A stretch of 64,000 nucleotides of DNA, taken from positions 17,632,434 through 17,696,433 of the forward strand of contig CM055095.1 in the NCBI GenBank assembly GCA_029204225.1, in the 5' to 3' direction. Under the pieces are notes generated by a model, which saw only the letters and a program-made list of their open reading frames with translations, searched no databases and had not been told where the DNA came from. This DNA comes from Diphasiastrum complanatum. Taxonomy: Eukaryota; Streptophyta; Lycopodiopsida; Lycopodiales; Lycopodiaceae. The first letter of the stretch is position 1. Every line of letters begins with the position of its first letter. Of this stretch, positions 1 to 63,640 are shown piece by piece. Made by a program: the position numbers and the translations under genes.

Positions 1-3000
1 GATCTGTCATAGATGATCAAAACGCAGTGATGCAACTGCTTACAAGCTCATACGATAGCTGGGTGATGATCATCACGACACATCCAAAACTAACTCTTTT
101 GAGAGTCATTACTATGTTGTTGCAGCAAGACACGCGGAGGAACGAAACATCAAATTCTCATGCTTTATACACCAACAAGAGCACGACTAAGCAGAAGAAA
201 AAGAAAGGCCCGAAGCAATCAAAGCCAGAACAGAAACTAGCATATCACAAAGAACAATCGAATCCATAGACGAAGAAGAAGCTGTTCTATAGATACTGCA
301 AGTGAAACAACCATGAAATTCAAGACTGCCGGATACTGCAAGCAAAGAACAACAACAAGGGGCAGTCGAATCAAGTGGCAAATGCAGCTGCAGAATATCC
401 ATAGCCTATTCAAGAAGCGGATCATGATGCCTTCATGACCAACCATCAAGGAGCATCCGACGACAGTTCTTGGTTCTTGGATTCTGGAGCCACCCAGCAC
501 ATGACCAGTCTCATTGGCTGTTTCGAGTCCTATACACCTTACAGTACCAAGAAATATATTTACCTTGGCGATAATAGCACACAAGCTATTAAAGGTGAAG
601 GTATTATAAGATTAAGCTTTGCAAATGATCAGTCTAAGCTACTTTCTAAAGTCCTGTATGTACCAAATTTATCTACAAATCTGCTCTCTGTAAGCAGAAT
701 CACAGATCTAGGACATAGAGTAGAATTCGAATGTGATCAGTGCAAAGTAGTTGATAGGAGATGCAAGATCCTAGCACTAGGAAAGAGACATGGATACTTG
801 TATAAATTAAGTCATTGCTTTTCTACCTCTAGTCAGGCGCTCAGTACTTCTATTTATGCAAATAAAAGTTTACTTTGGCATTATAGACTTGGTCACTTGA
901 ATCATGCTACTGTACAACAAATGTCTAGACAATCTATGTTTTTGATCTCGACTATCCTCGTGATAAAGTCAAGTTACCTGTCTGTCAAGACTGTCTAGTT
1001 CTAGTTGGTAAATAGACTAGGAAACCATTGAAATTAAGCCATCAACATATTGCTAGAGGATTGTTAGACATTGTACATTCAGACATTTGTGGCCCGATGA
1101 AAAATCCTTCGCTGAAGGATGCAAAATATTCTATAACTTTTGTTGATGAATTTTTCAGAAGAACTACGATGTACTTTATAAAGAAAAAATCAGAAACCTT
1201 CAACTGCTTCAAAATCTTCAAGGAGCGTGCAGAGAAGGAGAATGGAAGGATGATCAAGGCACTAAGGTCTGACAATGGTGGAGAATACATCTCTATCAAG
1301 TTTAAGGAGTACTGCCAAAGCCAAGGCATTGAGCAGCAATTCATCACTCCTTACAGTCCTCAGTCTAATGGCTTAGCCGAGAGGAAGAACTGTACCCTAG
1401 TTGAATCAGCCAAATGTATGCTAGCACATGCATCGTTGCCCAAGAAATTATGGGCCGAAGCTGTCTCCACTACAACATACGCTCAGAACAGATGTTCGAC
1501 AAAGGCCCTCTCAGGAAAGACACCCCACGAGGTGTGGACAGGATCTAAGCCTTCTGTGAAGAACCTAAGAGTGTTTGGATGTGTTGCCTACTCGCGGATC
1601 CCAAAAGACACGAGGAAGAAATTGGACTTCCAAGGTCTCAAGACCATCTTGATTGGATATACTTCATCTAATAGTACATACAAGCTGTATGATCTTGATA
1701 CCCAAAAAATCTTATATAGCCAGGATACAATCTTTATCGAGGATCAGTTCGTCACCATCAAAGGCAAGGATGTTGCTCTAGGAGAACCTTCATCACCTGC
1801 CATTGATATGACTGTCCGAGCTTCTGGCTTAGGCGTGTCCATTGTCGACCCACTTTTTGACAGCGAATCAGACAAAGATGTTGTCACTACCCAACAACAA
1901 GTCCCATGAGTGGTTCATCAATCGAATCCTCCCAGAAGATCAAGTCGAGTGCACACCCAGCCCAGTCTGCATGTCTCTTGATATAGGAACTGACGACAGT
2001 CGAAGAGGCACTCAGCCAACCAGACTCTTATCTCTGGAGAGAAGCTATGGACAGAGAGTAATTATTTCTTATCAAGAACCAGAAGTGGTCACTAGTCGAA
2101 GCTCCTATTGGCTGCAATATCATTGATTGCAAATGGATCTTTAAGATCAAATACAATGCCAACGGAACAATTGATCGAAGGAAGGCAAGACTGATAGCAC
2201 AAGGATTCACTCAGATCCCCAACGTTGACTACAACGAGACTTTCAGTCCAGTAGTCAAGCATTGGTCGATGCGAGCACTCTTGTCTTATGCTGTAGCTGC
2301 CGACCTCGAGGTACATCAACTTGATGTACAAATAGCCTATCTGAATGGAGTTATACAAGAAGACATCTACATTTCTAGCCTGAAGGATACGTTATGGAAG
2401 GTATGAAGAATCATGTCTGTAAACTTCACAAAGCACTTTACGGCTTGAAACAGTCTGTCAGAGCTTGGTTTCAGAGGATCAACACATTCCTCATCGAACA
2501 AGGATTCAAACCAAGCACTGCTGATTGCAATGTCTATTCCAAGTCAATGCCGCAATCTTTCATCATCATCACCTTATACGTGGATGATACGTTGCTCTTC
2601 AACAACAATACCAATTTGGTCAAGAATTTTAAGCAGATGTTGTTTTTAGAGTTCGACATGACTGATATGAGTGAAGCTCACTTCTGTCTGGGCATTCAGA
2701 TCCACAGAGACAAAACAAGATGACGGATTTACATCAATCAACAAAGGTATCTTCACAATGTTCTTAACAGATACAATCTAATGAATTGTAAATTAGCTTA
2801 CTCACCAATGGATCCAGGCCTGCATTTGTCAAAGGACCAATGTCCCCAGACCAAGCAAGAAGAGGAGCAGATGGGAGAGTATCTTTATCGATCGATACTT
2901 GGATCTCTCATGTACGCAATGGTCTGTACAAGACCATCTCTTTTGCAGTAAGCTCACTCACCAATATATGGCTAATCCTGGCATTACCCATTGGAAGGCT

Positions 3001-21916: not shown

Positions 21917-23400
21917 GTAAGAAGGAGAATAATCCAATACTCCCCCTTAATCTGCATCCTTGAATACCTTAATCTTCAAACTTAGTTCTACATAGAATCT
22001 TCTGCGTGCTTCCAAACTTAATGCTTTGGTAAAAATATCTGCTGTCATATCTTGCATTCTACAGTACTACAATCTGACTTCTTCGTTGAGAACTTTGCTT
22101 ATGACGGAGTGATACTTCAGTTCAATGTGCTTACTCCTAGAATGAAATCTAGGGTTGGCTGATAAGGCAATGACACTTTGATTGTCACAAAATAATGTCG
22201 TCGGAGCATATTGATTCAGACTGATATCTGAGAGTAAGTTCCTCAACCAGATTGCTTCCTTTGTAGCTTGAGAGACTGCGATATACTCTGATTCAGTGGA
22301 AGATATAGCTATTGAAGATTGTTTGCGACTATTCCAAAAAATTGGACCATTGTTGAGGAAGAATGTAAATCCGAAAGTGGATTTATGAGTGTCTACATTC
22401 TTGCCGAATTTAGATCTGTGTAACCATTGAGTAAATTGAGTTTATCGTTGCCGACTGCTCCATAACAAATGCAAAACTCCATAGTAGCTCAAAGATATCT
22501 CATGACTTTGATAAGAGCCTTCCAATGTGTTACACCAGGATTAGTCATAAACTGACTGAGAGAGCTAACTGCAAAAGCTATGTCTGGCCTGGTACAAATC
22601 ATGGCGTACATAAGAGATCCTATAATAGAATGGTAAGGATACTCACACATCTGCTGTTTCTCGTGAATTCTTTGGGGACACTGGTCCTTTGACAATTTGA
22701 GTCCTGGTTCCATTGGTGAGAGAGCTAACTTGCAATTAATCAGATTATATCTGACTAACATGTTGTAGATGTACCTCTGTTGTATAATGTAAACCAACTT
22801 CTGTTTTATGTCTCTGTGGATTTGTATACCAAGGCAGAAATGAGCTTCGCCTAGATCAGTCATGTCAAATTCGAAAGATAGCATTGTCTTGGTCTCTTTT
22901 ATCAGATCGGTACTGTTGCTGAAAAGCAATGTATCATCCATGTATAAAGTGATAATGATAAAAGACTGCTGCACTGCTTTGAAGTAAACATTTGAATCTG
23001 AAGAGCTAGGTGTGTAGTCGTGATCAATTAGGAAAGTATTGGTCCTTTGAAACCATGCTCGAGCAGATTGCTTCAAGCCATAAAGTGCCTTATGGAGTTT
23101 ACACACATGATTGTGTTTACCCTCGATAATATAACCTTCGGGTTGCACCATGTAAATGTCTTCTTCGATAACTCCATTGAGATATGTTGTCTGTACATCC
23201 ATTTGATGTATTTCCAAATCTGCTGCAGCGGCAAATGATAGCAAAAGTCGAATAGAAAAATGCTTAACTACTGAACTGGAGGTCTCAATATAATCGACAT
23301 TGTATATCTAAGAAAATCCTCTGGCGACAAGTCGTGCCTTTCTCTTGTTCATGCTTCCATCTGCATTGTACTTGACTTTGAAAATCCGCTACCTACTCGA
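21917..23400 (-). mobile_element. Ty1/copia family A fragment: reverse transcriptase and RNase H
   Basis: The minus strand carries reverse transcriptase (LHKALYGLKQSARAWFQR about 23,070; LYMDDTLLFSN about 22,930) and RNase H down to about 22,080, then the purine tract. The long intact RT stretch (22,489-23,244) suggests it is younger than its neighbours. It is truncated at about 23,400 inside the RT N-terminus. It is broken, with few interruptions. Confidence 0.9.

Positions 23401-24853: not shown

Positions 24854-24929
<76 letters not shown>
24854..24929. repeat. (GA)n microsatellite
   Basis: A perfect run of about 38 GA units. Confidence 0.97.
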
Positions 24930-25170: not shown

Positions 25171-25304
<134 letters not shown>

Positions 25305-26200: not shown

Positions 26201-26285
26201 GAGAGAGATAGAGAGAGAGAGGGGAGAGAGAGAGCGAGCGCAGAGAGGGAGGGAGAGAGTGCCGAGGGAGAGAGAGAGAGAGTGT

Positions 26286-26351
<66 letters not shown>
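26201..26351. repeat. Imperfect GA-rich tract with perfect (GA)n core
   Basis: A purine-rich GA tract with interruptions, perfect from 26,287 to 26,351. It ends about 340 bp upstream of the proposed start codon of the axis-protein gene, so it lies in its likely promoter region. Confidence 0.95.
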
Positions 26352-26352
<1 letters not shown>

Positions 26353-26414
26353 ACGCGGAGGGAGAGGGAGAGAGAATCACCCTGCAAAGAATCACGCGAA
26401 CGTCAATTACTCTA

Positions 26415-26571
26415 GGTAATGGCAATTGGGAGGGCCATTACCATAAATAATCCGGGACCCGACACTCGTTGTCGGGTCTCGAATTATTTATGGTAATGGC
26501 TCTCCCAAGGAGGCCACTCGCTATCGGGTCCCGGATTATTTATGGTAATGGCCCTCCCAATGGCCATTACC
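26415..26571. mobile_element. 157-bp MITE with TA target duplication
   Basis: The two ends form a strong inverted repeat of about 50 bp. The left end starts GGTAATGGCAATTGGGAGGG and the right end finishes CCCTCCCAATGGCCATTACC. Both are flanked by TA. A third copy of the inner block (ATTTATGGTAATGGCTCTCC) lies in the middle, so the element is internally repetitive. The TA duplication suggests a Tc1/mariner-type (Stowaway-like) origin. It ends 116 bp before the proposed ATG of the next gene. Confidence 0.82.
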
Positions 26572-26687
26572 TAGTACATATTTCAAAACATCCAACTAAA
26601 ATGAATGCATGACCTATTGCAATAAATGAAATGAAAAAATGAAAAAAATGTAGAAGAAATGAAAAATCTAATTTTAATTTCAAAACA

Positions 26688-29600
26688 ATGGCTTCAGCCT
26701 TGGAATTGGCGGTACAAAGAATTGGCATGCTAAAAGTTCTAATACGTGCTGCTCTCTTGTTTTCAGTGTTGCTTTCCTTTTGCGAGCTAATAATTGTGAA
26801 TGCTGAAAGTACTTTCATTGTCTTCTGGTTCTTTGAAACGAAGCGGCTCGACGGATACGATACACTGATATTAAGATATTTCACTAGATGAGACCATCCT
26901 AGCTCAGATCTATGTCGGGACCTGATTCTTTGTTGCGAATGAATCGTAATTTCATGTTTGAAGGTGAACAAAAGTGACAAATTCGGCACGGTTTACAGCA
27001 TGATGTCAGCGGCACAAGATTTTGAACCTGAGGAGTTCCAACGACTGACTAATTTTTTGGAATGTCCTCCAAACAAGTGTATCTCGAGTGAATTACTGCA
27101 AATATTGTACAAATTTCTGAGCAATGTAAGAATTTATTTACTCAATTGTAAGGTGTCTTTCTTCTTTTCTTGTTTTTATTTCTCTTCTATAAGGTGTAAG
27201 GTGTCTTTCTTGGATCTATGTGGTGTAATCACCTGTCTGGACGCAACATTTGGTGTATGATTTTAGTTTACAAATTTTCATACTCTAATTGATAGGCTTT
27301 AGCTTCGTGAAAGTTGGTCAATGATGTGCCTTTGTAACATTTCGTTGATAATTGTTGGTGAAGCTTCATTTTGCAACTCCTTTCCAACATTGTCAGATTA
27401 CTAGGCCTCCACGGTCGCTTACATGTAGAATAGTCAGTAAACCGTATCATGAGACCGTGAGCTCGCAGGAACAAATCAGGAAACTTATATTACTGATAAC
27501 AGCTGCGGCGATAGTGCTTGTAATTTTGGTCGGACGAGTAAACTTAACTAATTTACTATACTTTAGAGAAGTGGTGATTTTGGAGGTTGACTTCAGTCGT
27601 TATCTATGGCGACAAACTTATTTAGCGCCATTTATCCACTTAAGTAGATGTATTGGAGAATTTGAGAATTTATTGGCAGAAATTTTTGAACTCGGGCCTA
27701 GAAATTATCATAGACCTCCATATTGCTGATAAGTTTTTCTGTTTTGATACAATTCCACTTAAGGTGTGCATGTCCATGATGAGTTTTACTGGATTCTGTA
27801 CTCTCAACTGTCAACTGCTTGACATTTCATGACTTTTGATCCAAGGCTAAGTGAATTGCTGTACTTTCCTATTTGTTGAAAACTGGTATTTATTATTCGT
27901 TAGGTGGTAACGAATGCAAAAGATGCTTTAGATTTTTGTGATTTTCAACCGTTTTCTTTAAAAAATGAGTTGTTCACGTAATTCAAGGTGCAGGTTCAGA
28001 AATCCCTCAGATCCGAGTTATCTGACTGTCTAATGCTGCGACGGCTCTTCAAGGGACTACAGAGTTGTTGTGTACCCCTCGTAACGTTTCCGCAAGCTTT
28101 GTTGCAGAATCATTTTGTCCAAGCTCTAGCGAAGACATACGACAGCTTGCTATTGAGAGATTATGATAAGCAGGATGTCTTATCTACTCTACTCGAGCTT
28201 CTGTTCTTAATAGAAGATATAAGTGAACATCCAGAAGGTTGTAATCTGTATACTCAGGGGCTTGGTTACCTACTCCTAAATTACAATAACTATTTTCAAT
28301 TTTGTTTGTTTCTGAAATCAAAGGCTCCGATGGGATAACGTTTGCATACAATTTATACAGCGAAAAGGATGTGAATGCATTTCACTGCATCTTAGTAGAT
28401 AATTGAAAATAGTGAACCCCACAACTTTCCCCATCAACGCATGCAGAAGTCTTTGCTGATTGAAAGTACAAATCAGTTACAGTTCCCTTTTGGCTTATTT
28501 ACGGTTCTTTTAAGATTAATCTAGGGTTAAGAATAGGATTAAGATTGGCATATACGCCCAGCCTAGGAGTAAGAAAATTCCTTCTTGAGCTCAGATATAG
28601 CTCACTGGAGTTGCTCACTTAGATGTGTCTGTTTTAGTTCTGACATTCTGGTTTCTATGCTAAACAGTAGTCTGTCAGGAAGTGTGCACTATTTTGAGTC
28701 TGAGCAGATGATGCTACTGTTATAGCATTTGTTTGATCTCATTCCTCAGATTCGACAGGCACTGCAGTTGCCTGCTGAACTACTCAGGAAATCGGCAGGG
28801 AAAAGGACCTCCCAGTGTGTTTCATTTCTTGCAGATTTTAGCACATCTAGCTGACAGTTCCTGTCTGTCAGTGATTTACAGGCAGTTTACAGTTCACCTG
28901 TACGTTGGGTGGTAGCTGATAGATCCATTGGGGATAAGTTTTTTTGTGTTCTGTTTCTTTCCTCCACTTTTTTATGTATTCTGCAGTTGCATAGACCAAC
29001 CACCGGGCTGAGAAGCTGTTATAGCTCCTCATAGCATCAAGTGTGTTTTGACAATTTCAGGGAAAATCTCATATGGTAAAGTCTTTGTTCCACGCCTTCT
29101 GGTGCTGGCACCTGTGCGAGGTAATGCTGTCAACCTACAGCGTGCCGTTATGGAGACTCTCTGCGCTCTCATTACAAGGTCCTTAGAAAATCAGCAGGCA
29201 GTTCTAGACTCCGTTTTGGATTGGTGAGATTCTCATCTCGTGCATGAACGCATACGCTTATAAACTTTTGTTTAAGAGCGTCGAGATACGCGTAGATGAA
29301 TCTACCTCTTCCTGTTTTTTTTCACTAATTAAATTGCTTGCATACGCACTGAATTTGCACCTTTAAATTGTCATTGTATCAACCGAATTCACAATCAACT
29401 TAAAATGTTTGGCAGCTATAAGCTTTTCAAGGTTTTTCTGCCTAAATGTGGAGATTTCCATCTTCAAGCAAGCATTGCAGAGATATTATACAGACTGTCA
29501 CGAAGGGATGCTCAGCTTCTTGACTTGATAGATGATACTGCTTCAAAAGTAGCCATTCTAAACATTCATAACATGAAAAAACCAGACCTCGTTTTTGAAC

Positions 29601-32600
29601 TCAGAAAATTCGTTAATCTACTAAACGAGTCAACGGGCTCCCTTAGAAGGTATGCACCTCTCTCATTTGAGATTACTACAAGTCAATTATGCTATTGATG
29701 TCAATACTTTAAACTCTAAGGTTTGATATGCACCTTCAAATAGAGAGCATCTAATTATGCTGCTAACTGTATTCTTTGTATTAGTGTGCACTCTTTTCTA
29801 GTAGACAAAATTACTGTGAACGGGCATGAGGCAACTTCGGAGGAGAAATGGATAGATTTTGGCTCAAGTCATATTAGCTGTTACATATTCAAGGTATCTT
29901 TGTTGTGCATCATGAAAGTCCTGTGTTGTTTTCCTACAAAAGGAATGTTGCCCTTTTTTTGTGGATGTTACTGGAAGCTTTGCTCAATAATTGTGAACTT
30001 GTTTTCGCAGAGTGGCAATGATGAAGCCCACATCTGTGACTTGCTATACCAGGATATTATTAAGATACACCGTAAGGATCTCTTTTGCGTCCATCCCATT
30101 TCGTTGGCAAGTTTTCTAGTTAAGAATCTGCTAGCATTCATGCATGAGACTAGGTTATTTGCTTTTCTGACATAGGTACTGGTGGGGTCCCTTTTTACTT
30201 TGAGATATCTGTAACTAATACTTCTCAATTTAGAAAATGAAAATACAATTTAAATCGAATAAAATCTGTAAATCTGTCCACGTTGACCATAGCACAACAA
30301 GTTACATATTTTGCTGTCATCTTTGAGCCTTGATTGTGGTAAAGAACCAGGGCTGAAATTAGGGAATCGCACAATAGCTAAAGCTGTAACTCAGAATCAT
30401 TTTGGATAACATTCAAGAGATGCAGATTTGAGAACACATTCACAGAGACTCATGCACAGATAGACCAAGAGAACAAACTATCAAATGATAAAGATCATCA
30501 ATTACAAGCTATAGTACAAAGTACTGTAAATGAACTCCAAGAATTGCTGCATACTGTTCAAGTGAATAATGATAGGAGAAGGTTAGTAGAGATTATAGCT
30601 AAGACTGATCCAATCAATCATCTGACTGATGAGGAGACATCATGTCTCCCTTAGGGTTCACCAGTTAGAGTTCAGGGGCCCAAATGCCAAAAAATTCGCA
30701 AGTTTCTACATTAGGGCCCCAATGGCCAAATGTCAGTAACAAATTAAGAATGACAGGTCCCTGGGGCCCAAACTATATGCACAACTGATCGGAATGCCTC
30801 ACCGAGAGCCCTTAGTCCCACTTAAATAGCCACAGTTTAAGGCCACATGGCCTGGGTACTTGCTTTGCAGTTGCTCCCACATATTTAACTGACCACGGTT
30901 TAGCTAACTATACTGACACTGTGTGGTTGCTTCTAGTTAGTACCTAACCTCATTGTTCCCCCTAACCCAAGGGTACACTGACGTATTGTAATTAATGAAG
31001 GACATAAAATGGACATTGTAATTTTCACAAAGGAACTTTTATTAGACCAAAAGTGCTAAATAACTATAGGAAGACAAATCCCAAGCTATACGAAGTGACC
31101 TTGATGACTGATAGCAGTTGCAAGAAGTGACTTAGGAGATACCAGTCATAGAACCCACGGTTCCCAGAACCATGGGTCCTGGGAACCTTCCACGGTTCCT
31201 TGAACCGTGGTACGGTTCATCTAAATAAATAATTATTTAATTTCCCCCCTTTTTTAGTATGTACTGTTTTTTGTTTTTTTATAAAAGTGCAGATCAAGTA
31301 CGAGTCAACGAACATGAGAAGTAGGAGTCATGACTGTTAGAACATCACAGTACTGACCTGTTTCACTATGAAAAACATCACAGTACTGACCTGTTACTGA
31401 CCTGTTTCCAGAGATCACTGTTTTGCATTTTTCTGGCATTTTTTTGGGCTATTTTTGGGGGTGGGACAAAAAAAAATCAATTAATTACCTGTATGGTTCA
31501 CCACGGTTCCAGGTTAAAATTTGTGAGAACCGTACGGTTCACTGTACGGTTCTCAGAACCGTGGTGAACCGCCCATGGTTCATTAATTCTATGATACCAG
31601 TATGGTCAGTCATTTAGCTCAATAGAAAAAACCACAACCAAAGTGGATGACGCATAAAACAGAAACATGGCCCATGCTTTATGACCGCATCCAAGGGTGC
31701 CAAATAGTAGTAGCAACTGTAATACCCAAAATAACTTTCGTATTTGTAGTACGGCATTATCAATTGCCTGCCCACATTGTACACGTGGGTGATGTTAAAC
31801 GTGGGGACTTTACGTTTTAACTGGCCAGAGCATGTTATGAATATTGAGTAGTCCAAGGACGGAGTGCTTTGTGCAAACAAAGGACTGTTTAGATTGATGC
31901 CTTAGAGCTGAAGCATGCAATGGATGTGTTCTTGCTGAACTTCTTTTCAAGAGAAGTTCAGTCATAGGAGTAGCTACTGTTAGGAATTTTTTTATAAACT
32001 TTGAATCATGGTTAGCCAATATTGTGCCTATGTAGACCTTTATAGTATAAAGCAATGTTAATGCAAACTGATCGAAAGTATCCACTTGTTATCTGTCATC
32101 ATCCCACTATACTAAGTTTTACAAATTGTACAAGTTAGTATAGTGAGGAAGACATGTCTCGTACTTCAAGACCAATTGTTATCCATGTTGAGAGCAATTT
32201 ATAACCTCATTAGGTTGAGTAGTGTTTCCAAAAGTCTTATGATATCACTATTAGTAACCTCAAAAATCTTAGGCGTTTTTTGGAAAGGATGTCAGGGCTT
32301 ATGCCATACTGACCCTAATTTTAGACTGAAACAAATGTTTAAGCCAAAATAATCTGAAGCAGAGCCAAGCACACAATATGTACACACATTCATGGTGTCC
32401 TGGGAGTTATCAGCATCATGTGTCACTGCTTCAAAGTGAGCTAGGGACTAAGTTCCCTTCGATGCACTATTCATGAATGTCAAATGGTTTATTGCGTTGT
32501 GTGGTGTGTGGTGTGTTTTCACTATTATATCAAGGTTTTGTAACATGGGCCCTTGTGTCCAACCAACAATCATGTCTAACTAGTGTTATGAGAGACTAAT

Positions 32601-35600
32601 AAAGCTATATACTAAAAATAGCCCCTAACTAATATACCTTTACGTATTGGGCCAGTTACCATTAAGGGAATGTCCTAGTGGGTTCTAATCTCTAGAAGGT
32701 TCCACTAAGGGCCTCTAGACAGTATATGTAGGTCTATTATTTAGACATTAGTAATTGATCGGTTATTCAGCTCATTGGTATTGCTTGGTTATCCAGCCTA
32801 TTGGTATTGCTTGGGCTCTTTGTGGGGGAACCCTTTCGCTATTGCTTGTAGGGCTTTAGCCATTGATTATATCAGATGCTCTTGGTCATTCTTCATGGTA
32901 GATTGCTTGACTGTGTCTATTATAGTCATTGCTGCTTCATTCATACAATATCCATAGATTGAGTCTATAACTCGGTATTAGAGCACTTCCTTGGTGGGAG
33001 TGCTAGTTTTTTCTCCATACTTGGCGGATTTCCATTATGTTATTTTAGTTCGTTTTCTGTTTGGGGGCCTGCCATAGGTTCTCCTCACCATTGTATGCAC
33101 CAAAGCTTATATTGAAACACCAAGTTACAATCGGATCAGCTGCAGATTCATATATTGGTCATATCAGTGAAATCAGAGCTGGACGCTGAGCAATTAAAAG
33201 ACAATTTCGGACAAACACGTGCTACATGTCAGATTTCAATCAGCCAAAGATTTTTTGAAAAGTGTTAATGGTGTAGGTGTCTGTTTTATGGTCTAATGGA
33301 AATTCTAGAGGGATAGCTTCTTATGTCCAGAAAAAGGCCAACCTTTGAATGGTGTGCATCCTTTGATACATGGTTAAGAATTAGTGGATTTGCAGAAATG
33401 CTATACAAGATGCTTAGTTGTAAGCCAAGCACAGAGGAAAAAAGAGAGGAATCCTGCAGGCATTGATAACCAAAAACTTAGGCCACCCACAAATCATATT
33501 GCCAGAAATGACCAGGGAAATCTTAGGGAGTTTTTAGTTTTTGGTTAGCGTAGAGTAGCATAAATGCCAGCTGCTGCTTCTGTTCACCAATTGGACGACA
33601 TCAATTTCATGTGCTATCAACTTCTGGTTATCCCCAGGTTATAGTTTTTTCTTTGATTGTTTTGGCCTTAAGTGGTGATCAGGTACTCAGTTTTCTGCAG
33701 GTTTGCTGATGCAGGGTGCTCCTTAACAGACTTGGAGATTGTAATTCAAGAAAAGTGCACAAATCCCTACTTTCAACAGGTTTGATTCACTAAGAATGCT
33801 TAAACCAGGAGTTGACTTGATTGCAAATCCTTTATGTGGTGCATTGTTGTAAAAGGATAAGTATTGGCTACAACATGTTTTGCTGGCAGGATGTTGCTGA
33901 TCATCTTGGACAATCTAGCATTCACCTTTTCTTTTCACCAGAAGGTGGAGTCTAAAAGAATTGTGCTTGTGATTCAATTTCCTCTTCATTAACATTCAGG
34001 CTTGAAACTTCTCTAGAAGTAGTATTGCTCCCAGCTTTCAAATTTTTGTTTCATCATTCTTTGCACGATTATGAATGCAGATCTTTCAGTTATCATCTTT
34101 TCTGTCATACCTCAGATACGAAAGTTGAAGAGACAAGACTTCAAGGTGAACTTTGTGTGCTATTTATCTATGGTTCATGCTTCTTACAGAACAGAATTCA
34201 TAAGCTGTTTTGCCATTTGGTGAAGACGATAATAATTAAAACAATCAGTTTCTTTAATCAAAATAAGATATTCAGAATGAAAGGACAGGCCTTTGGTAGA
34301 GAGTCCAGACTCCCTTATTGCTGCTTGTGCACGGTATCAAGTCAGTTCCTCAATCATTCAAATGTTCACAACAACTGCAGTTAACTTTTCATGATCAAAG
34401 GGATCAGACTTACTTGACGACCCCTTATAAAAGCCCACAGAGAAGGATTGGCATTCGCAAAGTATCTATAGGGTTAAGAGTCCCATTGCCAAAAGCAATG
34501 GCGGTGGCTCTGCCGGTTGCCCAGGAATTACTACAAGATGTGATCGAAGATTTGAATACAGCAAATGAAGAAAACGATGTTGTCAATGCAAGTGACAACA
34601 AATTTAAACAGGAAGAAGATAGACAGCGATCTAATGTGGAAAAGGGGCAGGAAACAAATGAGATCACAAAGCAATGTGTTATCATGGTGAAAGAGGCACA
34701 GATGAAGGACAAGATAGTAGTTGCATCCAATCCCAGGGAGTATGGAGCGGGCAAAGCCGAGGCGGATAAGGATCAATATACTGTGGAAAGGATACAGGAA
34801 ACTCATGAGATAATGGAGCAACGTGCTATCATAGCGAACGAGACACAGACGAATGACACGATACTTAATATATGCAATCAAGTGAACTGTGGTGCAAAAG
34901 CTCATGTTCAGATCATCCACCATGAACCACCCCTGCCACCACTCTATTTTTCTCGTGACATTACTGCGGACTCAAGTGATGAGATGGAGCCAATGCTAAA
35001 GCAGAAGGATGTTCCGAAGGAAAAAATTGAAGACTTATCTCCAACTGTTCTGAAAGCACCTAAAACGCTCGAAGTAAATGCCAAAAAGAAAAAAGTTTCT
35101 CCCTATGACTTTGAGCATGACAGCATGCCCATAATTATGGAGGAATCACTAGAGGAGGTCAAGTTTTCCACCTTAATGAGTACAAAGAAAAAACCGAATC
35201 GCAGAAACAAGCGTATCAAGTTATCTTCCCAGCAACTTGCCCATACTTTAAACCTTGAACCCTCTAGTTGCCAGCTCTCTGTCAATGGGCAACAGAGTTC
35301 TATACCTGATAGAAAAGTTCTCCAGAGCAAAGATCCTGAAGAACATAATAGTTTAGATGAAAAAGATGTCTCTTTACCTGGAAGGAATATACAAGTACAA
35401 GTGGAAAGGAACTCAACAACCGTACATAGCCCAAGGACAACTATTTTTCAGTTTCAAGGCTCAGAGAGTAAAAGACCAAAAAATGGTGTTTCTGACCCTA
35501 TCGAGACTGACAGTGACAAACATCAAACTATAATGGCAAAACCGTTCACAGTGCCATATGACCAGAAAAGAACAACTTTAGCCAGATATAAGATTAAAAA

Positions 35601-38124
35601 ACAGAGGGCACCACTTGGCCAGAATATATTAATGAAGACCAGTTGTGAATATCAGAAGACAGCTTCAAAAGACAAATCAGGCACTTTATCAAATCTACAG
35701 CTTCGATCGGCTTTGCGAAGTACTATTATCAGTGCTCACGGACAGACTTTCGGTTCTATGGTTGCTCCAAATAAGATAACCCCGGATCATAGGCAGTCAT
35801 ATTCAAAGAAAGCAAGGAAAGATAAAGCAAACATAGAACACCTAGGAAATAAGGACACCGGTCCTCATCCCAGGAGATTAGTTGATTCTTTCATGTGTTT
35901 TGGCCCTTTAGCTGCTGTTCCGGAATCGCCAGCCATTTCTGTATCCTTTCATCGGACCGAATTTCTCCTTATCGTTCTTATTTGACCAGAAACTTTGAAG
36001 CTTGACTATCTTTTGAATGTACAATGTGTAAGTGAATTTAGGCACGAAGCTGTGTTCATTTCTAAAACTTCAAATATGTCGAAGCTGCTGTTGCATTTGA
36101 CACGGAGATATATTGTGTTTCTTAACTGTTGAACATAGTCACCAACTGTGAAAAAAGCATTCATGAATGCAGAAAAGGATGATAGTGCAGAAAGCCTGCC
36201 TTTTGAGGTTGAGGAAATAATGTACTGTTTCACTGAAGCCAAGACCGCCAGGGCAGAAGGTGACTCATCAATTAGCATATTATTTTATCTGACCTTGTGT
36301 ACTTAATCTGCATTCTGATTTTTTATGACAGCAATCAATCTTGCAGGTTCTGTTGTTGTTCCTGAAATATTGCATTGTGCCAGAAGAGGTCGGCGGCAGA
36401 GGAGTTCTAAAAAATTTTCATCCATAGTATCGAGTCCTTTTGATGATCGGCAGGAGGTGGCAACTGAAACTGAAATTTCACCACCTGCAATTCCATCAGA
36501 TGAAGAGGAAAATGCATGTTAGTGCATTTGTTCTGCCAAACTATACCCAGTCATATTGTTAGTCGTTCATCTTTCTTATGAGGATGCAAAAGTAAATAAA
36601 TTGTGTTCGGTGTATTAGGTAGAGAAGCAGAGGATGTTACACCGTATGAAGATTCCAGCATTGATGGGTATGCGTTAAGAAAATCCCTAAATTTTGTTAT
36701 ACGTGAAAAGAAATCATTAGCTTAAACTTATATCTTGCTTCTCCTCGGTGTGAGGGTCATGCTTGCTATGGTAATCATAAATTTCATACTCCAAGAAAAA
36801 AATTATTCTCTATATACTTCAATAAGGCCTTGCTTTTAAATTCTGCAGAATTTGTAAAATGGTCGGAAGACTTTTGCAGAAGTTCAGACAGAAAGTTAGA
36901 GTGCAGGCACAGGCAAAGATGAAGCAAATTCTAATTTCCACATCAGAGAAGGCGTTGGTAGAAGTACAAGCAGTGAAGAGCAAAATTCAAGACGATGTGT
37001 ATGTTGAAAAAATTCTAAGTACAAAATTATTGCTGCATTTTCTTCTGTGCATCCTGATTTTGTGGTTATGCTGATTGCAGCGACGAGTATTCAAAGGTTT
37101 GCAAGCAGAAATTTCAAAAACTAGAATTTCAACTAGCAGGTTGTATTTCGTCAACCTGACTGTGATGTGATGCAAATTTGTTGATTTATTAACGGTGTAC
37201 CAATGAAGTTTTTGGCTGCTGAGACCTATTTCTTCTTTCTAAAGATCAAAAGAAAAAGTTTGAAGAGATCTGCCACAAATTTAAAACTGATTGCGAAACT
37301 CTGCTTCATCTGTGGAATCACTTCAATTCCCAAACGGAAAGTACTGAGATTGAACTAAGGAGCCTTGCAGACAAGCAGAGTAAGCATGCTGGTCAGTGAA
37401 GCATTTGGGTGTAGTAATTAGCACTTTGATTTTTTACTTAAGCTGATTTCTGGTTACATTTGAATGTTTTGGTAGAGATCACACACAAAAAACTCTTGGC
37501 ACACGCACATGAGGCGAGTCAACACTACATGGCTGAGGCTGAGAAGGAGCTTTCTACTATAAGAAAGGTTAGAATCAATCTCAAACATCACGATCTTATT
37601 AATTTAATTACAAGATCAGTCTGTCTTCTTAACATTTGAATAATGAATCTAATATTCTCTTTCCTTTGTAGTGGCAGTCACCTCTGAATTCTAGTACAAC
37701 ATTCCTCGTTGAAGTACATACATTTTTGACCTTAAGATATCTAAATCATGCATTCAATAGCAATTTGTAGCTCTCTTTCAATATATAGCATTTGACTTTG
37801 AATTGTCCCGTTTATGTTTTTTGTGAGCTCAGAGGACTGTTATGTAGTTTTGTTCACACCAGTACACCACCCTTGTGACCTTGATAACATGCTTAGGTAT
37901 TCCAGATTGTTAGCGCATGCTTCACTGGCAAATGTAAAATTGTACATTTGAGCTTATAACTATATGGTATTGGATTGTAGAGGCTCAATAAGATAGCAAA
38001 GATGTACATGAGACAAAAGCAGAGAGTGGCAACTGGAATAATTAATTGTTACACTTTTTCTCAGGCCGCCCAGGATATGCAAGGACTTCGAAATCTGCTT
38101 ACGGATGCTGCTGCAAAAATTTGA
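26688..38124 (+). CDS. ASY3: Meiotic chromosome axis core protein, ASY3/SYCP2/Red1 family, with SYCP2-type N-terminus
   Basis: Proposed spliced gene of about 1,230 codons. Exons: tentative first exon from ATG 26,688 (context AACAATGG); then 26,964-27,125; 27,988-28,237; 29,061-29,223; 29,416-29,649; 29,785-29,893; 30,011-30,071; 33,571-33,637 (tentative); 33,701-33,779; 33,890-33,944; 34,116-34,145 (tentative micro-exon); 34,346-35,940; 36,139-36,259; 36,332-36,517; 36,619-36,667; 36,849-36,998; 37,081-37,139; 37,245-37,379; 37,476-37,567; 38,065-38,124 (TGA). All junctions after the first exon are GT-AG and keep phase, and the total is divisible by three. Family role: axis core proteins bind the HORMA protein ASY1/HORMAD and build the meiotic axis through a C-terminal coiled coil. 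Length lies between Arabidopsis ASY3 (about 790) and human SYCP2 (about 1,530). Similarity was judged from memory. The first-exon donor is unresolved (26,736 is poor). Confidence 0.82.
30390..30652 (+). other. Unrecognised open frame inside the long intron
   Basis: An ATG-less open frame of about 80 codons runs through HAQIDQENKLSNDKDHQLQA, NELQELLHTVQVNNDRRRLV and ends DPINHLTDEETSCLP before a stop. Its composition looks coding and helical. It does not resemble any SYCP2 segment expected here, and the intron is otherwise full of transposon DNA. It could be a passenger fragment or an alternative exon. Confidence 0.3.
31147..31593. mobile_element. 447-bp hAT-type MITE inside the axis-protein gene intron
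   Basis: Flanked by 8-bp direct repeats ATACCAGT (31,139-31,146 and 31,594-31,601), the duplication size of hAT elements. The ends are short inverted repeats, CATAGAA and TTCTATG. Both subterminal regions are packed with ACGGTTC/GAACCGT words in both orientations, as hAT ends often are. No transposase is present. It lies in the intron between the exons at 30,011 and 33,571. Confidence 0.87.
32584..32984 (+). mobile_element. Probable LTR end with decayed primer-binding site, intronic
   Basis: TGTTATGAGAGAC starts an LTR-like block. At 32,973-32,984 CGGTATTAGAGC resembles the copia primer-binding site TGGTATCAGAGC with two differences. No gag could be recognised after it. It is probably an old copia LTR fragment in the 3.5-kb intron. 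The edges are approximate. Confidence 0.45.
34346..35940 (+). other. Large central exon: disordered linker with ASY1-binding-like motif
   Basis: A single 1,595-bp exon (about 531 codons) rich in charged and polar residues, predicted disordered. Near its start is SPQRRIGIRKVSIGLRVP, with RKVSIG at 34,456-34,473. Arabidopsis ASY3 carries RKISIGV close to its N-terminus, in the region that binds the HORMA protein ASY1. In SYCP2 the equivalent closure motif follows the Spt16M-like domain, which is where this one lies. Basic clusters such as TKKKPNRRNKRIKL could be nuclear localisation signals. No globular domain is seen. The donor is at 35,941 (GTATCC). Confidence 0.78.
36849..38124 (+). other. 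Exons for the ASY3-type C-terminal coiled coil
   Basis: Five short exons encode a continuous helical region: LLQKFRQKVRVQAQAKMKQI, then FQKLEFQLA, then KKKFEEICHKFKTDCETLL, then ITHKKLLAHAHEASQHYMAE, ending NLLTDAAAKI and TGA. Arabidopsis ASY3 ends with a matching series (LQNFERKLKSAAEKKSSEI ... RTSHQKLIAHFEGGIETKLD ... KMLQLKMIVAECL). In the family this coiled coil assembles axis filaments, with ASY4 as partner in plants. The preceding exon at 36,332-36,517 carries a basic patch (RRGRRQRSSKKFSS) and is probably part of the nuclear-localising linker. Confidence 0.85.

Positions 38125-39768: not shown

Positions 39769-39829
<61 letters not shown>
39769..39829. repeat. (GA)n microsatellite
   Basis: A perfect run of about 30 GA units. 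The 430 bp that follow, up to the gypsy element, show nothing. Confidence 0.97.
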
Positions 39830-47337: not shown

Positions 47338-50300
47338 GGCCAAACCATCCAATCCACCACCCAAGTTGGAGAAAAGACTTTCAAGAATTGACGCACCTAA
47401 GTACGATGATGGAGAATCAGATCCAACATGATTTCTCCAAGATTTCAACAATGCTTGTAAATTCTATGGGGATGAATCTGACACCGAAAAGGTACGTTTG
47501 TTCCCCATGGTTCTACAAGGCAACGTGAAAGAGTGGTTTTTGAACCTTGAAGCCTCGGACAACACGTCTTGGGAGACCATCGCTGCCCTCATCAAAAGGT
47601 TCAAGCCCTCTAAATTGACGCAAAGTCCTTTCATCCAATTGACGCATATCAAGATGTGCAATAAAGATCCGTACGCACCTACATCAAGCGCTTCAAGCGT
47701 CTTAAAGTAGAGTGTGTAGATGATAACATAACTGAAAAAATGGCTCTTAAGCTTTTTTTAGTTGGTTTACCCAAGGCCATTAGAAGAGAATTGAAACTCA
47801 TAGATCGTACGACCGATTGAAAGATGCCATAGATGATGCCATCCGTGAAGAAGATGAAGGGTCTGACGAGGATTTTGACTATCGCGACAAGAAGGGAAAG
47901 GGGCTAGTTAAGCATGAGACTTCCCGCATGGAAGGATTGTCCTCATCTAGCGAGGTTGATATCATTCAACACCTTGAGGGTTGGCAAAAAGCACAACAAG
48001 CTCAGGTGGAGAAGCTCACCTCAGAATTCCAAAAGGTATTGAAGGATGTTGCTGAAAAAACCTTTCCAGTTCGTGAGAATGTGTGGTGTCAAATTTGTTC
48101 TCAAAACCACACTGCCAATGAGTGCCCTCACGTAAGGACATATTTTCCACAAGCCACACGACCTATGTATCACCCTTATAGGCCACCTGAACCTCACTAT
48201 TACACACCAAATTACAATCCAAATCCACCCGCGCGAGGCCATGACAATACTGACAAAATTTTCAGAATTCTCACACGTGTGGGAATGATCCACAAGTATG
48301 ATTGACCTTATTAAGCTTTATGATTAGCACAATAATCTGATTCTAGATTGAATAGCAAGATCTAGTACAGAATTTATGGCTTAACCACAGTCTAGCATGC
48401 TAAGAATCAGAGAATGATAGCATTGAGTCACAAACGAGCAAAAGTACAAGAAATTAGTGTATGAGCATTAGTCTCAACACGAGTTAGAGAGAGAAAGAGA
48501 GATATATATTCAAGCAAATATGGTATAGATCCAAAATGGTATGGAATAGCTACAAAGCTTTGGTTCTTCATCATAGATTATGTGAATAGCTACACATATT
48601 TATGGAGTTTGAGGTAGCTCGAGGTAGAACCACATCCGTCCACCTTTCAATCACATCTAAAGTGAAAACTAGAGTCTAAGTGACATTTGTCACATCTCAT
48701 GCATGTATCTCTACCTACTTTTACCAAGTGTCCTACTTCTAACTAGAATTGTACAAATCATCATGCATGTGTCCATTCCACTTTGTGCATGCCTTGCATG
48801 TCACTATGGATCACTTACAATAAATGCATGTGATATGCCACGAGTTTCTACAGGCATATTAATGCTATTTCTAAGTCTACAATCTATATGCAAGTTGTAT
48901 TCAACCAACTAAATATGATAAATCTGTATAGCTCGAGTTCTATCTAGGCCAAATTTGGCATTTACATTTATGAAACAACATACTTGCATAGTAAAAAGTT
49001 TGTAGCAAGCCTAAAGTCAAGATAGATTATTTTTCAATTTCAACAAATACCAACCCAAGCCCAGTTCCTTATCAACCCAGACAACCATTTGTAGTCAATC
49101 AGCCTGCGCCACATGTACAATCTCACATGGTTGATACTACCTATTTCGATCCTGCTACCTATTATGTAGAGGATCCCAATGCCACTGTTTATCAAGCAGA
49201 AGCGAGTTACTCTTATCAGATGGCACAACCTGGATACAACCCCAATCAACCTCAATATCATCCACAACCAATAGCATATGTTGCACAATCGATGCCAATT
49301 TTACGTGGTTGCTTTGTGTGTGCGGGAGACGACATCCTAGCATTTGTTGCCTTGACAAGTTACAATATCCGTCTCTTTGTGAAAATTGTGAATAGAGCAC
49401 CATATCAAAGACTGTCCAAAATGACCCAGCCCCGCAGCTCTTGTTAACTCTATCCAAGTAGAGACAATCCCAGCCAGGGTCATGACTCGAGCCCAACACC
49501 GGTAGACTAGCGAAGCTGCAACGAGATGCATCAATAAGCCCTCACCCGCTCCGTCCAGTGACAGAACCATACCAATTGTCTATCCTAACCCCAATGAGGA
49601 GATCCGTCTGAGAGAAAAATATCAAAAGCTCATCCACGAAGCCGATAATAAGGATGAGACTGTAATCGCTCCTAAAGATCACATCCAAGATATCCCAACC
49701 GTAGAAGGAGCTGAGATATGGGGAAATTTGCTTCAAGCAAACGTTACCCTCCCAATTGAAGTACTCTGAAAGTACACCGGAAAATGGCAAAAAGAGTTGT
49801 GCTCCATTGGAGATACCATCATGCCTCAAGACTTCCCTGAGGTGCCCCTGTATCTCACTAACCTTGTGAGCGACAAGGGAAATATACACATTCCTGCAAC
49901 TTACGGACGTTCCCGCGTTGTCTTGGTAGTATTAGATGGCAGATCGGGAGTCAACATCATATCAACATCCCTGATGAAGGAGTGGGGTCTTCAAGCTTCC
50001 CACAAATGGTCGAACTGTCAACTTCGAATGGCAGATCAAAGTGTGGTAAAACCATTGGGCCCGATACCAGACGTAAGACTGAAACTAGGAGATTTGAGCT
50101 TCACGCTGGATTTGGTAGTGCTAGATATCCCTAGCAACGCAAATTCCTTTGAATTGCTCCTAGGTAGGCCATGGCTCTCTAATGCGCGAGTAGTGCACGA
50201 TTGGAATAGAGAGCGCATTACATTTGGCAATCGAGAAACATCAGTCACCATCGACTCTACTGGTAAGATCAAACCCGCACAAATCACCGAATATGGATCC

Positions 50301-51170
50301 TCTACCACAGAGTCTATTCTTGAAAATTACCGTGACATCGAAGATAAGAGCCACTATACCAAGGCTACAAATATCATCAATTGGAGCCACAACTTGGCAA
50401 CAATCGATTGTGTCAATGCGGAACATTGCGAGCTCAATACACATCACACTGATAACTATGAATCCGCAATGGAACCAACTGACTTGGATACTCCCATTTT
50501 CAACGTCAATTATGTTATTATTAAGCCCCACAACGAGGACTTGCTTCACGTCGCTTGGCTACCTCATGACGAATCAATAACCTTTTATATCGACAACGCG
50601 AGTGTTTTATGCTCTCAAGAGTTTGATACTCACTCCGACATGGCTAATATTACAGATGTAGCTATTCTGCGCTTCATGGACGCAATTCCCCCACGGCTAC
50701 TCCCTGAGAAGGTTTGAGAGATAGAGCCTAAGACTAGCATTACTACAGCCAAACCGGACCAAAGTAAAATGTATCGTGTCAAACGATCGGTATACGAATG
50801 GGAGATACATGATAATGAATCTATCTATGCAATAGATGACACAATCTTAACCAAAGTCCCTCAACTTCCAAGCCACACAGAAACACCGTTCACAAGGTGC
50901 ATGCGAAACCAACTAGGAAGGAAGCTATCCACGAGAAAACAAAAAAGATTATAGAGGTGGAGCCTCCTCACGATTTCACAATAGCTCGAGAAACCCCGGG
51001 CGAAGCACAATCCTCTAGGTCCACAAGCCACACAGCTAGGACCCCAAAAGATCCACCTAAGGTCAGGACTAAGAAGCCCTACACCCATGACAAAATTGAT
51101 GTGCCCAACCATTTCAAGGAATTCACCATTGAATATGTGACTATCTGAAAGAAATTTGATGTCCAGAACG
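47338..51170 (+). mobile_element. Ty3/gypsy fragment: gag, knuckle, retropepsin
   Basis: Gag runs from about 47,338 (KVRLFPMVLQGNVKEWFLNL, SPFIQLTHIKM) to 48,240. It is split by an insertion of about 790 bp and resumes at about 49,045 with TYYVEDPNATVYQAE and a CFVCAG knuckle. Retropepsin follows at 49,900-50,220 (DGRSGVNIISTSLMKEWGLQ; LLGRPWLSNARVVHDW), then the protease-RT linker to about 51,170, where copia sequence begins. RT onward is absent. It is broken, with several interruptions. Confidence 0.87.
48250..49040. other. Insertion of about 790 bp in gypsy gag, unclassified
   Basis: Comparison with the related gag at 55,200-55,350 shows that this block interrupts gag. It is AT-rich and encodes nothing, and contains TCACACGTGTGGGA near its left end. 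No inverted ends or target duplication were identified, so the class is open: MITE, solo LTR or other. Confidence 0.5.
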
Positions 51171-51176
51171 TCAAAC

Positions 51177-54100
51177 GCTCTGATACCACTTATGAGAGTT
51201 GTAATAAGCTCAGATGTGAGTTCGATTCTGTTTGTTGGTCTACTGCCAACTACAACAAATTTACAATCCTCTAGAGCATGGACAGACACTGCTGACCTAT
51301 TTTATAATTTATTTTAGCATTCAACAAGATGAAACCAGTGTGTGGAAGGAATAGTAAATAGTTGACAACGAACATATATCAATCTGACAATAAGGCATTC
51401 AATAACATTTAAGATAAGAAAATCATCTGCATAACATCTACTATTTTAACAATGAATTTCTTGAGCGTTGTGTGACATGTCCACCCAGCGCGTCGGCGTG
51501 AGAGGCACTAACTCTCACGAACTATATATAGTCGTCTCGCTTACTAGCGGACTTCTGGACATCTGCTAGCAACACTGTGCTTAGCTTACATTGGCATTCA
51601 ACCAAATTGATGTTCAACATGTTCCCTCGTTCTCAATTTGTTTATATAGATGGATAGAGAGAACATGTTTAAAGGTTGATCAGGGCTTACAAGAACGGCT
51701 GGTTAAGCACGTTCTTATGGTACCCAAATGGTCCGTGGAGGAGTGACGTCCTCCTTGTACTTTCCGGATCTCCTTTGTACTTTGAGACGTGAAGATCCAC
51801 CGCCTCTCGGTCTTCGTGGCTTCTTCGTCTTTTATGGCTTCTTCTATCTTGGTCCTTGCCATTGAGCCTTTTTGGGTCCACGAACATTTCTTTTTCATAT
51901 TCGGGTATCCTTTAGTCAACGAACCCCGTCGTCCTCGGGTCTTCACTCCTCGAAGCTTTGGTCTTCGCATCCAAGCAGCTCCCATGCGTTTCTGCAGACT
52001 TGAGCTCTAAAGCTAACAAAGCTTTGTGGCTCAAAACAAATTGTTTCTTCAACTCCCTCTCAAAGCATGGTAGCTTTATGACTCCCAGACTCTTCCTCTG
52101 CCTCTCGAACAAATCTTTTTGTAAGGCCTTGGTGAAGATGTTTGCCACCATCTGCTTCGTTCCAATGAAGCTGGTCTTCAATTCGTTTCTGGTGACTAGG
52201 TCCCTTATCAGATGGTACTTGATTGCAATGTGTTTCGTCCTTGAGTGAAACACGGGATTCTTCATCAAGTGTATTACAGATTTGTTATCCATATGCAAAA
52301 TCAGAGGCTCTTTGGTGTTCTCACCTAGTCCTTCAAGGAACTGTTTGAGCTATATGATTTCATTGGCCATCTTCACAACTGCTATGTATTCAGCTTCACA
52401 AGATGACTGAGCTATAATGGTCTGCTTCTTGCTGACCTAGAGAATTGCTACGCTTGCTGCAATTGTGCACCCTCCTGAGACACTTTTATAGTTGTCATTG
52501 AGTGATGCCCAACTTGCATTGTTGTAGGAGTGCATTTGGAAATCTGCATCACGAGAATAACACAACCCATAGTCCTTTGTCTGTTGAAGGTACGTAAGAT
52601 TCACTTCGTGATCTTCTAGTGTGCTAAGCCGGGATTTGTGCTGAATTGGCTCATTCTAAACATGGCATAAGCTATGTTAGGGCGTGTGTTATATGCTAGA
52701 CACATAAAGATCCAATTGGCCTCCTGTAAGACGTGTGCTGCATGATCTCTTTCTCTTTTTTAGTTTTCGAACAATCTTCGTTCGTCAGGATTGTTCCTGC
52801 AAGCATTGGGATATTTGCCCCTTTGCAATCTATCATCCCAAAATCATCAAGGATTTTCTGGAGGTACCTTGACTGATGAAGGTATAACTTTCCTTCGTCA
52901 TAGTTGTGGTCGATTTGCATGCCTAGATAACATCTAGCTTCTCCTAGGTCTGTTATCCCAAAATGTTTCGAGATATCGCTCTTCACTCCTGCAATTAGCT
53001 CTTTGCTTCTGCATAGTATCATGGTGTTGTCCACATACACGACAACAATGATAATTTTCCCATCTGTGATCCTCACATAGACATTGGAATTAACCATCAG
53101 TGGCTCGAATCCCAAGGACTCAGGGCATGATCTTTCTTCTTGTACCATTGTCTGCTTCAGACCATAGATACTTTTGTGCAGTCGGCATGCATTGGTAGGA
53201 AGTGGGTCGAAGATATAGCCTGGAGGTTGATTCATGTAGACTTCTTCGTCTAGCTCGCCATGTAGGAATGCTATCTTCTCATCGACGATGTGAATCTTGA
53301 GGTCGTATGCAACTGCATATGCAAATAATAGGTGTAAGGATGCATGTTTCACCACTGGAGAGAAGGTCTAAATGTAGTTGATGCCGTACTTCTAAGAGAA
53401 TCCCTTTGCTACAAGTCTGGCCTTGTATCTCAAAATATCTCCATTCGGTCCATACTTGAGCTTGTAAACCCATTTGCATTGTACTGTCTTTCGCTTGTCT
53501 CTGACACTGGTTGTAGTGTCCATACCTCATTTTTCTTCATGGATTCGATTTTTTCGTTCATGGCTTGGATCCATTTGTCCTTATCTGGACTGTCGATGGC
53601 TTCCTCGAATGTTTGTGGTTCGCCACTGAATCCACAAAACTCTTCGGATGTTGAAGTCGAACTGCAAATCTTGTTGGCGCTCTTCGCTCTCTTATTGATC
53701 TCCTTGGAGATTCTTCGGGTATTGCAATGCTCTTGCCTTTGTCTCTTCGGCTAGGTCCGGAATCATCTCGGTTTATAGGAGTTGTAGCAACAGGCAGACT
53801 TGCGGTCCTTTCCTCGTCTGACTCATCGCTCAGCTGATGTGGAGTTCGAACATCTTCGTATGAGTGTTCATACCCGACGAGATATCCTAATTCAACTTTA
53901 TTATCAAACTTCTTTCGAAGCTTATCAGGAATATGTGCATAAGCTGCACAGCCAAAAATCCGAACATGTGTTAGATTGGGCTTTCTACCCCACCATAGTT
54001 CATGTGGTGCTGTGTGAGGAACACCTTATTTGCCTATCCTGTTCTGGATGTAGGCAATTGTAGCTATTGCTTTAGCCCATAGCACTCTTAGTGCCTTTGA

Positions 54101-62100: not shown

Positions 62101-62340
62101 TTTGCCAAGTATTGGAACCAAATGGGGCACTGGACAACCACCAAGTAATTGTGAAAAAAGTGGATCTTGAATGGATCCAAACTCCCAAAATACTTGGCTA
62201 AGATCTTTGCACAACAAGTTACAAAAGCTAGAAATGGCAAAGCATCCTAATGCTACCTTTGATACACATGAACTTGACAAAGCATTCAAGAGACAAAAGA
62301 AACTAATTAAAGGTACTGATGGCAGCCAAAAATAGTAGCA
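59195..62340 (-). mobile_element. Ty3/gypsy element, chromovirus-like, heavily rearranged
   Basis: On the minus strand a retropepsin region lies at 61,560-62,000 (IFLVDTSSTHSFISSYIF; PLECYDIIFGADWFSSLG). At the other end is a chromodomain-like segment at 59,297-59,389 (IQFLIQWDGCPIQEATWEPI), which chromoviral integrases carry at their C-terminus. Between them no clear reverse transcriptase or integrase core is seen, and much of the middle is a degenerate repeat. It is broken, with many interruptions, so it is an old fossil. Confidence 0.75.
59490..60850. repeat. Dispersed degenerate repeat, CCAAGCGATATGGA...AACCAGGAATGCCA
   Basis: Related blocks of about 40 bp occur near 59,497, 59,550, 59,838, 60,503, 60,720 and 60,806. 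Each joins a CAAGCGATA(T/C)G word to (A/C)CAGGAATGCCA. A second word, GCCCAAGGTATCC / CGGTACCTTCAAGGCCC, recurs near 59,936 and 59,980. All lie within the gypsy fossil. Confidence 0.65.
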
Positions 62341-63640
62341 AATAGGGCTCCCACTTTTGGAAACCTCTTAGGATCATACACAAAAGCTTGAAGACAATAC
62401 ACAAAGCAATGCTCTCAATGGAGGAAGAAATTGTGACAATGTTCTATTGATCTCTCTCAACAATACAATAAGTTTTTCCAACCTGTTCTCCACGAATTTC
62501 AGCCTAATATAGGTGAGAGAAATGACTCTCTCTCCTCTCTCTAGAACTTAGGACCCAATTTTAGGACACCAGTAGCCTAAAATAGCCAATTTGGCCTATA
62601 TGTCCAAATAACATGATTTTGGTATCATTTTGAAGGTCCTGAAGTTTGAGACTTCTTCAATATGAAATATATACTAAAATAAAAGTATCTGGGCCTCTTT
62701 CACACGTGTGAAAGGTTAGATCCAAAACTATGTACAAAAATTGTCAATTTAGGCCTCAAACTAGCTAGGAAATGTTGACAATTTTTATAGTAATGCTGCA
62801 AGAGACACTGGAAAAAATGTGTTGAAAAGGCTGGAAAACCGTGAATATGAAGGCTATAAAAATGCACGGACAACAAATATAAAGGCTAGAAAAACATCAA
62901 GTATGAGGGTAATGATGAGCATGCAATCAAATGTGGATTTGGGGTAACAAACGGAGGCAGAACAACTTGAAAACACAGTATTTCGGTTTTTGTATTAGTA
63001 TAAAAAATCACAGTACATTGCAATATTTTGGCACAGTGGCCGAAACTATACTATAAGTCGATTTTTTAAAGGCCATCAAAATTTTTTAAAGGCCGGCCGT
63101 AATTTCTCTAGCCACATTACGGATGGGCTGGGACCCCTATCTATTGGTGATTTCCAACCATTTTACATTGAAATTTTACGACTTTTACATGCCGATTTCT
63201 ATACTATAGGAAAATTAAGCTTTAAAATTAGCCCGATTTTTGGTGTCAAAAAATCGGCTAACACTCGCCCAGTATAACTCGCCATCAGAAAAAAAAAAAT
63301 CTAGATTTTTCCAGATCTTTTGACAATCAGAACCCATTTGTGTTTTTCTGTTATTTTCATTTTTCTCGTTGTCTTTTGGATTTGCATTTACACCGCTTCG
63401 CATCTATCTGATTTTCGTTTTGATCCCGATCTGATCTTGATCTGAGATTCATCATCACATCAGGTAGATACTTAATCAGATTCAGCATCTGACCACCTAT
63501 ATGCCGAAAAGTTCTACAAAAATTATCTGAGAAAAAATAAAATGAAAAGATAAAAAACAACCGAAAAACAAAAATACCAAAAATAGTCCTATTTTCCATT
63601 CTGTTGTATGCATCTGAGATCTGGTAGGAGATTAGCCACC
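62341..63640. other. Noncoding stretch between two gypsy elements
   Basis: AT-rich. It includes ACACGTGTGAAAGG and short T- and A-runs. A 93-bp or shorter frame here and there has no coding character. It probably contains LTR and leader sequence of the flanking elements, but no ends were identified. Confidence 0.4.

Follow-up and report, generated by a model that had tools for sequence, protein, structure and literature searches.

The gene described here lies on the plus strand of the window, that is, the whole 64,000-nucleotide stretch of contig CM055095.1 (positions 17,632,434 to 17,696,433) from the clubmoss Diphasiastrum complanatum, a species placed in Lycopodiopsida. When spliced from the window, the gene at 26688-38124 comprises 19 exons and 1,200 codons; GT..AG boundaries were found at 18 of the 18 introns, and the reading frame is unbroken over all of them (Table 1). 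The protein search gave O6H91_04G030900 from the same species (1,172 amino acid residues, designated P0001) with 99% identity over 98% of the query. The spliced window protein contains this public sequence, annotated only as "hypothetical protein", unchanged as its C-terminal 1,172 residues; exon 10 and the first part of exon 11 were set to agree with it. As for the gene span given by the sequence-only reading, the stop at 38124 agrees with the public model, whereas the start at 26688 is uncertain. The public start codon corresponds to M29 of the 19-exon model (window position 27000, in exon 2), and exon 1, together with residues 17-28, is an uncertain part of the model without outside support. 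All six peptides quoted in that reading occur in the spliced sequence, namely in exons 4 (FVPRLLVL), 5 (GDFHLQASIAEILYRLSRR), 6 (EEKWIDFGSSHISCYIF), 9 (SSIHLFF), 15 (RLLQKFRQKV), and 18 (THKKLLAHAHEASQHYM).

Table 1. Exons of the clubmoss gene and retroelement fragments in the window
Feature	Position	Strand	Basis
Exon 1, proposed (MASALELAVQRIGMLK); uncertain	26688..26735	+	Open frame with GT donor; absent from public model
Exon 2, ARM-like helices begin; contains public start codon (27000)	26964..27125	+	P0001 and predicted structure
Exon 3, ARM-like helices	27994..28237	+	Spliced model and predicted structure
Exon 4, ARM-like helices (FVPRLLVL)	29061..29223	+	Aligns to 5iwz
Exon 5, ARM-like helices (CGDFHLQASIAEILYRLSRR)	29416..29649	+	Aligns to 5iwz; invariant block KCGDF.LQAS
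Exon 6, ARM-like/PH-like junction (EEKWIDFGSSHISCYIF)	29785..29893	+	5iwz sequence search and predicted structure
Exon 7, PH-like strands	30011..30071	+	Spliced model and predicted structure
Exon 8, PH-like strands, 3' of 3,643-base intron	33715..33779	+	Spliced model and predicted structure
Exon 9, PH-like strand (SSIHLFFSPE)	33890..33944	+	Spliced model and predicted structure
Exon 10, final PH-like helix (DLSVIIFSVIPQIRKLKRQDFK)	34081..34145	+	Public model; homology to Calypogeia DLSTIESSVLPKVRAL; P0001 helix 351-366
Exon 11, closure-motif-like site (RKVSIGLRVPLPK) 25 codons in, then disordered region	34381..35940	+	
Exons 12-14, remaining disordered linker	36139-36259, 36347-36517, 36619-36667	+	Spliced model and predicted structure
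Exons 15-19, ASY3-like coiled coil and stop	36849-36998, 37081-37139, 37245-37379, 37476-37567, 38065-38124	+	PF20435; P0001 helix 1006-1171; Arabidopsis ASY3 alignment
Retroelement fragments	405-1909, 22489-23307, 49770-50717, 52696-53367, 61564-62367		Pfam matches

In the first Pfam, PDB-sequence, and protein searches, we used a preliminary gene model that differed at residues 381-402; in Pfam, P0001 gave the same ASY3-like result as the preliminary model. The structure work was based on P0001.

The front of the protein is SYCP2-like, as had been proposed. In the PDB sequence search, the window protein matched the N-terminal domain of SYCP2 (5iwz) with an E-value of 3.5e-7, and the liverwort protein P0002 (see below), used as a single query in this search, gave no 5iwz match. 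The AlphaFold model of P0001 was modest (mean pLDDT 45.3, 0 residues at 90 or above, four sequences in the alignment) and consists, in this region, of helices at 10-251, followed by strands at 258-349 and a helix at 351-366. The ARM fold expected by the sequence-only reading within residues 17-409 is thus present in the model, and the sequence match, the model helices, and the structure searches agree on an N-terminal ARM-like helical domain. A PH-like domain follows it directly, and the alignment to 5iwz runs through model residue 374. Foldseek matched the P0001 model to 5iwz with an E-value of 2.5e-10 (rmsd 9.3, TM-score 0.53 by target length, 17% identity), and VIA-align, in which SYCP2 was likewise the best structural match, gave an rmsd of 7.2 with 16% identity. 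Pfam has families named for SYCP2, and the Pfam scan returned none of them for the window protein or for P0001 to P0004. A precomputed Pfam label, PF26290.1, is attached to P0001 to P0004; our Pfam scan of these four proteins returned no such match.

The other end of the protein is ASY3-like. Residues 1027-1185 of the window protein matched the Pfam family PF20435 (ASY3-like) with an E-value of 9e-13 and 47.7 bits against a cut-off of 25.7, covering positions 619-777 of the 793 in the profile, and the same family was matched by P0001, P0002, P0003, and P0004. In the AlphaFold model of P0001, the C-terminal coiled coil is one helix (1006-1171). When the coil of P0001 was compared with those of Arabidopsis, it scored 188 with ASY3 versus 119 with ASY4; 500 shuffles each gave means of 42.6 and 44.1 and maxima of 81 and 71, respectively. 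The coils of P0002 (196 versus 130) and P0003 (184 versus 92) gave the same picture, so that all three proteins compared are nearer to Arabidopsis ASY3 than to ASY4.

Between the two ends, a closure-motif-like site, RKVSIGLRVPLPK, is located after the PH-like domain. Its counterparts are GKTSIGIAVPLPR in Selaginella and DKSTSIGPV, likewise after the PH-like part, in Calypogeia, and Arabidopsis ASY3 has SRKISIGV within its putative closure motif region (residues 8-35). With the 11-residue core of Arabidopsis ASY3 as the query, the site ranked first of 1,162 positions in P0001 and first of 1,059 in P0003, and 14th of 1,201 in P0002 and 13th of 1,216 in P0004. With a 15-residue query, the ranks were 1 (P0001), 4 (P0003), 23 (P0002), and 22 (P0004), and with a 28-residue query, they were 12, 36, 146, and 143 in the same order. 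In gapped alignment of residues 1-40 of Arabidopsis ASY3 to the whole proteins, the best match was not at the site in P0001 or P0002, and shuffles scored as high in 65 and 102 of 500 cases, respectively; in the case of P0003, SIG was aligned, yet 478 of the 500 shuffles scored as high. The pattern [KR]x(0-2)SIG occurs at one site in each of the five proteins (P0001 to P0004 and Arabidopsis ASY3), but it was picked after the sequences had been seen, and at least one site was present in 100 to 204 of 2,000 shuffles per protein. West et al. 2019 (PMC6349405) place the closure motif of SYCP2 and Red1 directly after the ordered N-terminal domain and report that the ASY1 HORMA domain is bound by residues 1-50 of Arabidopsis ASY3, which include the putative motif at 8-35. 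These similarities are suggestive of a candidate closure motif after the PH-like domain. Being a short match, it is the weakest part of the three-part architecture (ordered front, closure motif, and coil), which our analysis otherwise supports as proposed.

The protein search gave four hits among 8,000 scored candidates, from lycophytes and a liverwort only. The ARM-PH part, the linker, and the ASY3-like coil are found in Selaginella moellendorffii (SELMODRAFT_445497, P0003) and in the liverwort Calypogeia fissa (P0002 and P0004), so that the domain set is the same as in the clubmoss. The overall identity of P0002 to P0004 with P0001 in the full alignment is 28-31%, and the linkers are the most divergent part. 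Blocks such as CYKLFK.FLPKCGDF.LQAS do not vary among the proteins of clubmoss, spikemoss, and liverwort. None of the hits of this search, of a profile search (three of 7,999 scored candidates), or of a region search (two of 2,622) came from a fern, moss, gymnosperm, or charophyte; the region search was restricted to proteins between about 370 and 1,178 amino acid residues long. The profile search missed P0002, which was a row of its own query, and its silence therefore means little; with hits from lycophytes and a liverwort only, the searches are uninformative on ferns, mosses, and gymnosperms. The two Calypogeia proteins are nearly identical; P0004 has 32 additional residues in the PH-like part, resembling a retained intron, and is without the IHFFNPA stretch of P0002. 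Residues 3-49 of Selaginella P0003 are a piece of a GDT1 antiporter (PF01169, E-value 4.3e-9), which is probably an annotation error.

Computation establishes the order of the domains and the homology of both ends. We conclude, with a probability of roughly 0.93, that the locus is a single gene for the SYCP2-type meiotic axis core protein (ASY3) of D. complanatum, in which the ancestral ARM-PH front is retained. Alternatively, two adjacent genes, one for an ARM-PH protein and one for ASY3, might have been fused both by the gene prediction and by the first reading. Such fused models occur, as the GDT1 piece at the start of Selaginella P0003 exemplifies, and intron 7 (30072-33714) is 3,643 bases long, whereas the other 17 introns are 82-868 bases. 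However, this intron lies inside the PH-like domain and not between ARM-PH and the rest, the frame is held across all 18 introns, and the same N-to-C order is observed in the public gene models of three species (clubmoss, Selaginella, and Calypogeia). Moreover, an ordered N-terminal domain and a C-terminal coil are reported in one protein for SYCP2 and Red1 (West et al. 2019, PMC6349405), as are ARM, PH, and coiled coil for RED1 (ecRED1) of the brown alga Ectocarpus (2025, PMC12678776). We therefore regard a fusion of two genes as very improbable. To a similar degree, we do not expect a pseudogene or a non-meiotic paralogue; Calypogeia does have two near-identical proteins, but an uninterrupted frame of 1,200 codons, 19 exons whose 18 introns are all GT..AG, and the blocks invariant across the three plants argue against this explanation. 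That the front belongs to a generic armadillo protein, ARM repeats being alike, is hardly credible, because 5iwz alone covers both ARM and PH (5..374) with a lead of 4.6 Z units among the 50 matches listed by VIA-align, has a Foldseek E-value some six orders of magnitude lower than that of the runner-up, and was the sole PDB sequence match at E-values up to 10 (residues 126-331 of the window protein).

The clubmoss protein shares the order of ARM-like and then PH-like domains with mammalian SYCP2, from which it differs in its ASY3-like coil. With Arabidopsis ASY3 it has the [KR]x(0-2)SIG site and the C-terminal coiled coil in common, but the motif-like site of the clubmoss comes after roughly 370-400 residues of ARM-PH, whereas the putative motif of Arabidopsis is at 8-35. 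Ectocarpus RED1, judged from its published description, has a similar ARM-PH-coil order in a brown alga. The clubmoss protein would build the axis filament through the coiled coil, probably with an ASY4 partner, and the short motif that follows PH may capture the HORMA domain of ASY1. By analogy with what has been proposed for SYCP2 and Red1, the ARM-PH module may contribute to anchoring on chromatin or cohesin.

The lack of the N-terminal domain in plant ASY3 has been called a mystery (West et al. 2019, PMC6349405), and the loss of the front of the SYCP2-3 family in Spermatophyta was published in outline in 2021 (Tromer et al. 2021, PMC8131943). A 2023 plant survey detected ASY3 in all the major lineages of Viridiplantae that it used; the ARM-PH part is not discussed alongside ASY3 in the available portion of that survey (PMC9957857). 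An ancestral SYCP2/Red1/ASY3 protein with loss of the front inside plants, as the sequence-only reading suggested, fits the present evidence, which on the side of the loss is one sequence, that of Arabidopsis ASY3 (AT2G46980), for which the PDB sequence search did not yield 5iwz. The loss pattern in seed plants is therefore not new, the clubmoss gene is a further member of the family, and the accepted family history is unchanged by it. What the gene adds is an exon layout that shows a possible way in which ARM-PH was lost, and, with its intact exons, a concrete protein for testing the role of the lost module. Exon 11 opens with LTFHDQRDQTYLTTPYKSPQRRIGIRKVSIGL and RKVSIG starts 25 codons into it; RKISIG of Arabidopsis ASY3 starts at residue 18. 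With exons 1-10 coding for ARM-PH and the motif lying close behind the start of exon 11, a layout like that of seed plants could have arisen if exons 1-10 were lost or if a new start came into use before exon 11, judging from the exons of one species. In a further reading, which we consider less likely than not, non-seed plants would load ASY3 on chromosomes via its own ARM-PH, in the manner proposed for SYCP2 and Red1, and seed plants, with ASY3 truncated at the exon 10/11 boundary, would now depend on another route, such as the central chromatin-binding region of ASY1; the order of axis assembly would then have been rewired within land plants.

Intron 7 contains short palindromic repeats around CCACGGTTC and is possibly an old insertion within the PH-coding part. 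A missing PH strand in this intron, suspected from the 32 extra residues of P0004, was rejected, since P0002 is without these residues and they have the look of a retained intron; in a filtered list of candidate exons from intron 7, none resembled anything placeable. A fold-back element at 26412-26574, some 110 bases before the proposed ATG (26688), has 51-base arms that are 98% complementary; an inverted repeat of 39 bases is nested in it, and it also holds a direct repeat of 46 bases. It resembles a MITE-type insertion close to the promoter. The gene is flanked by long GA microsatellites (24854-24929, 25173-25302, 26201-26375, and 39769-39829). In the Pfam scan of nine of the 27 long open reading frames of the window, three matched nothing and six matched retroelement families, including integrase, RVT_2 reverse transcriptase, and retroviral-type protease, on both sides of the gene.
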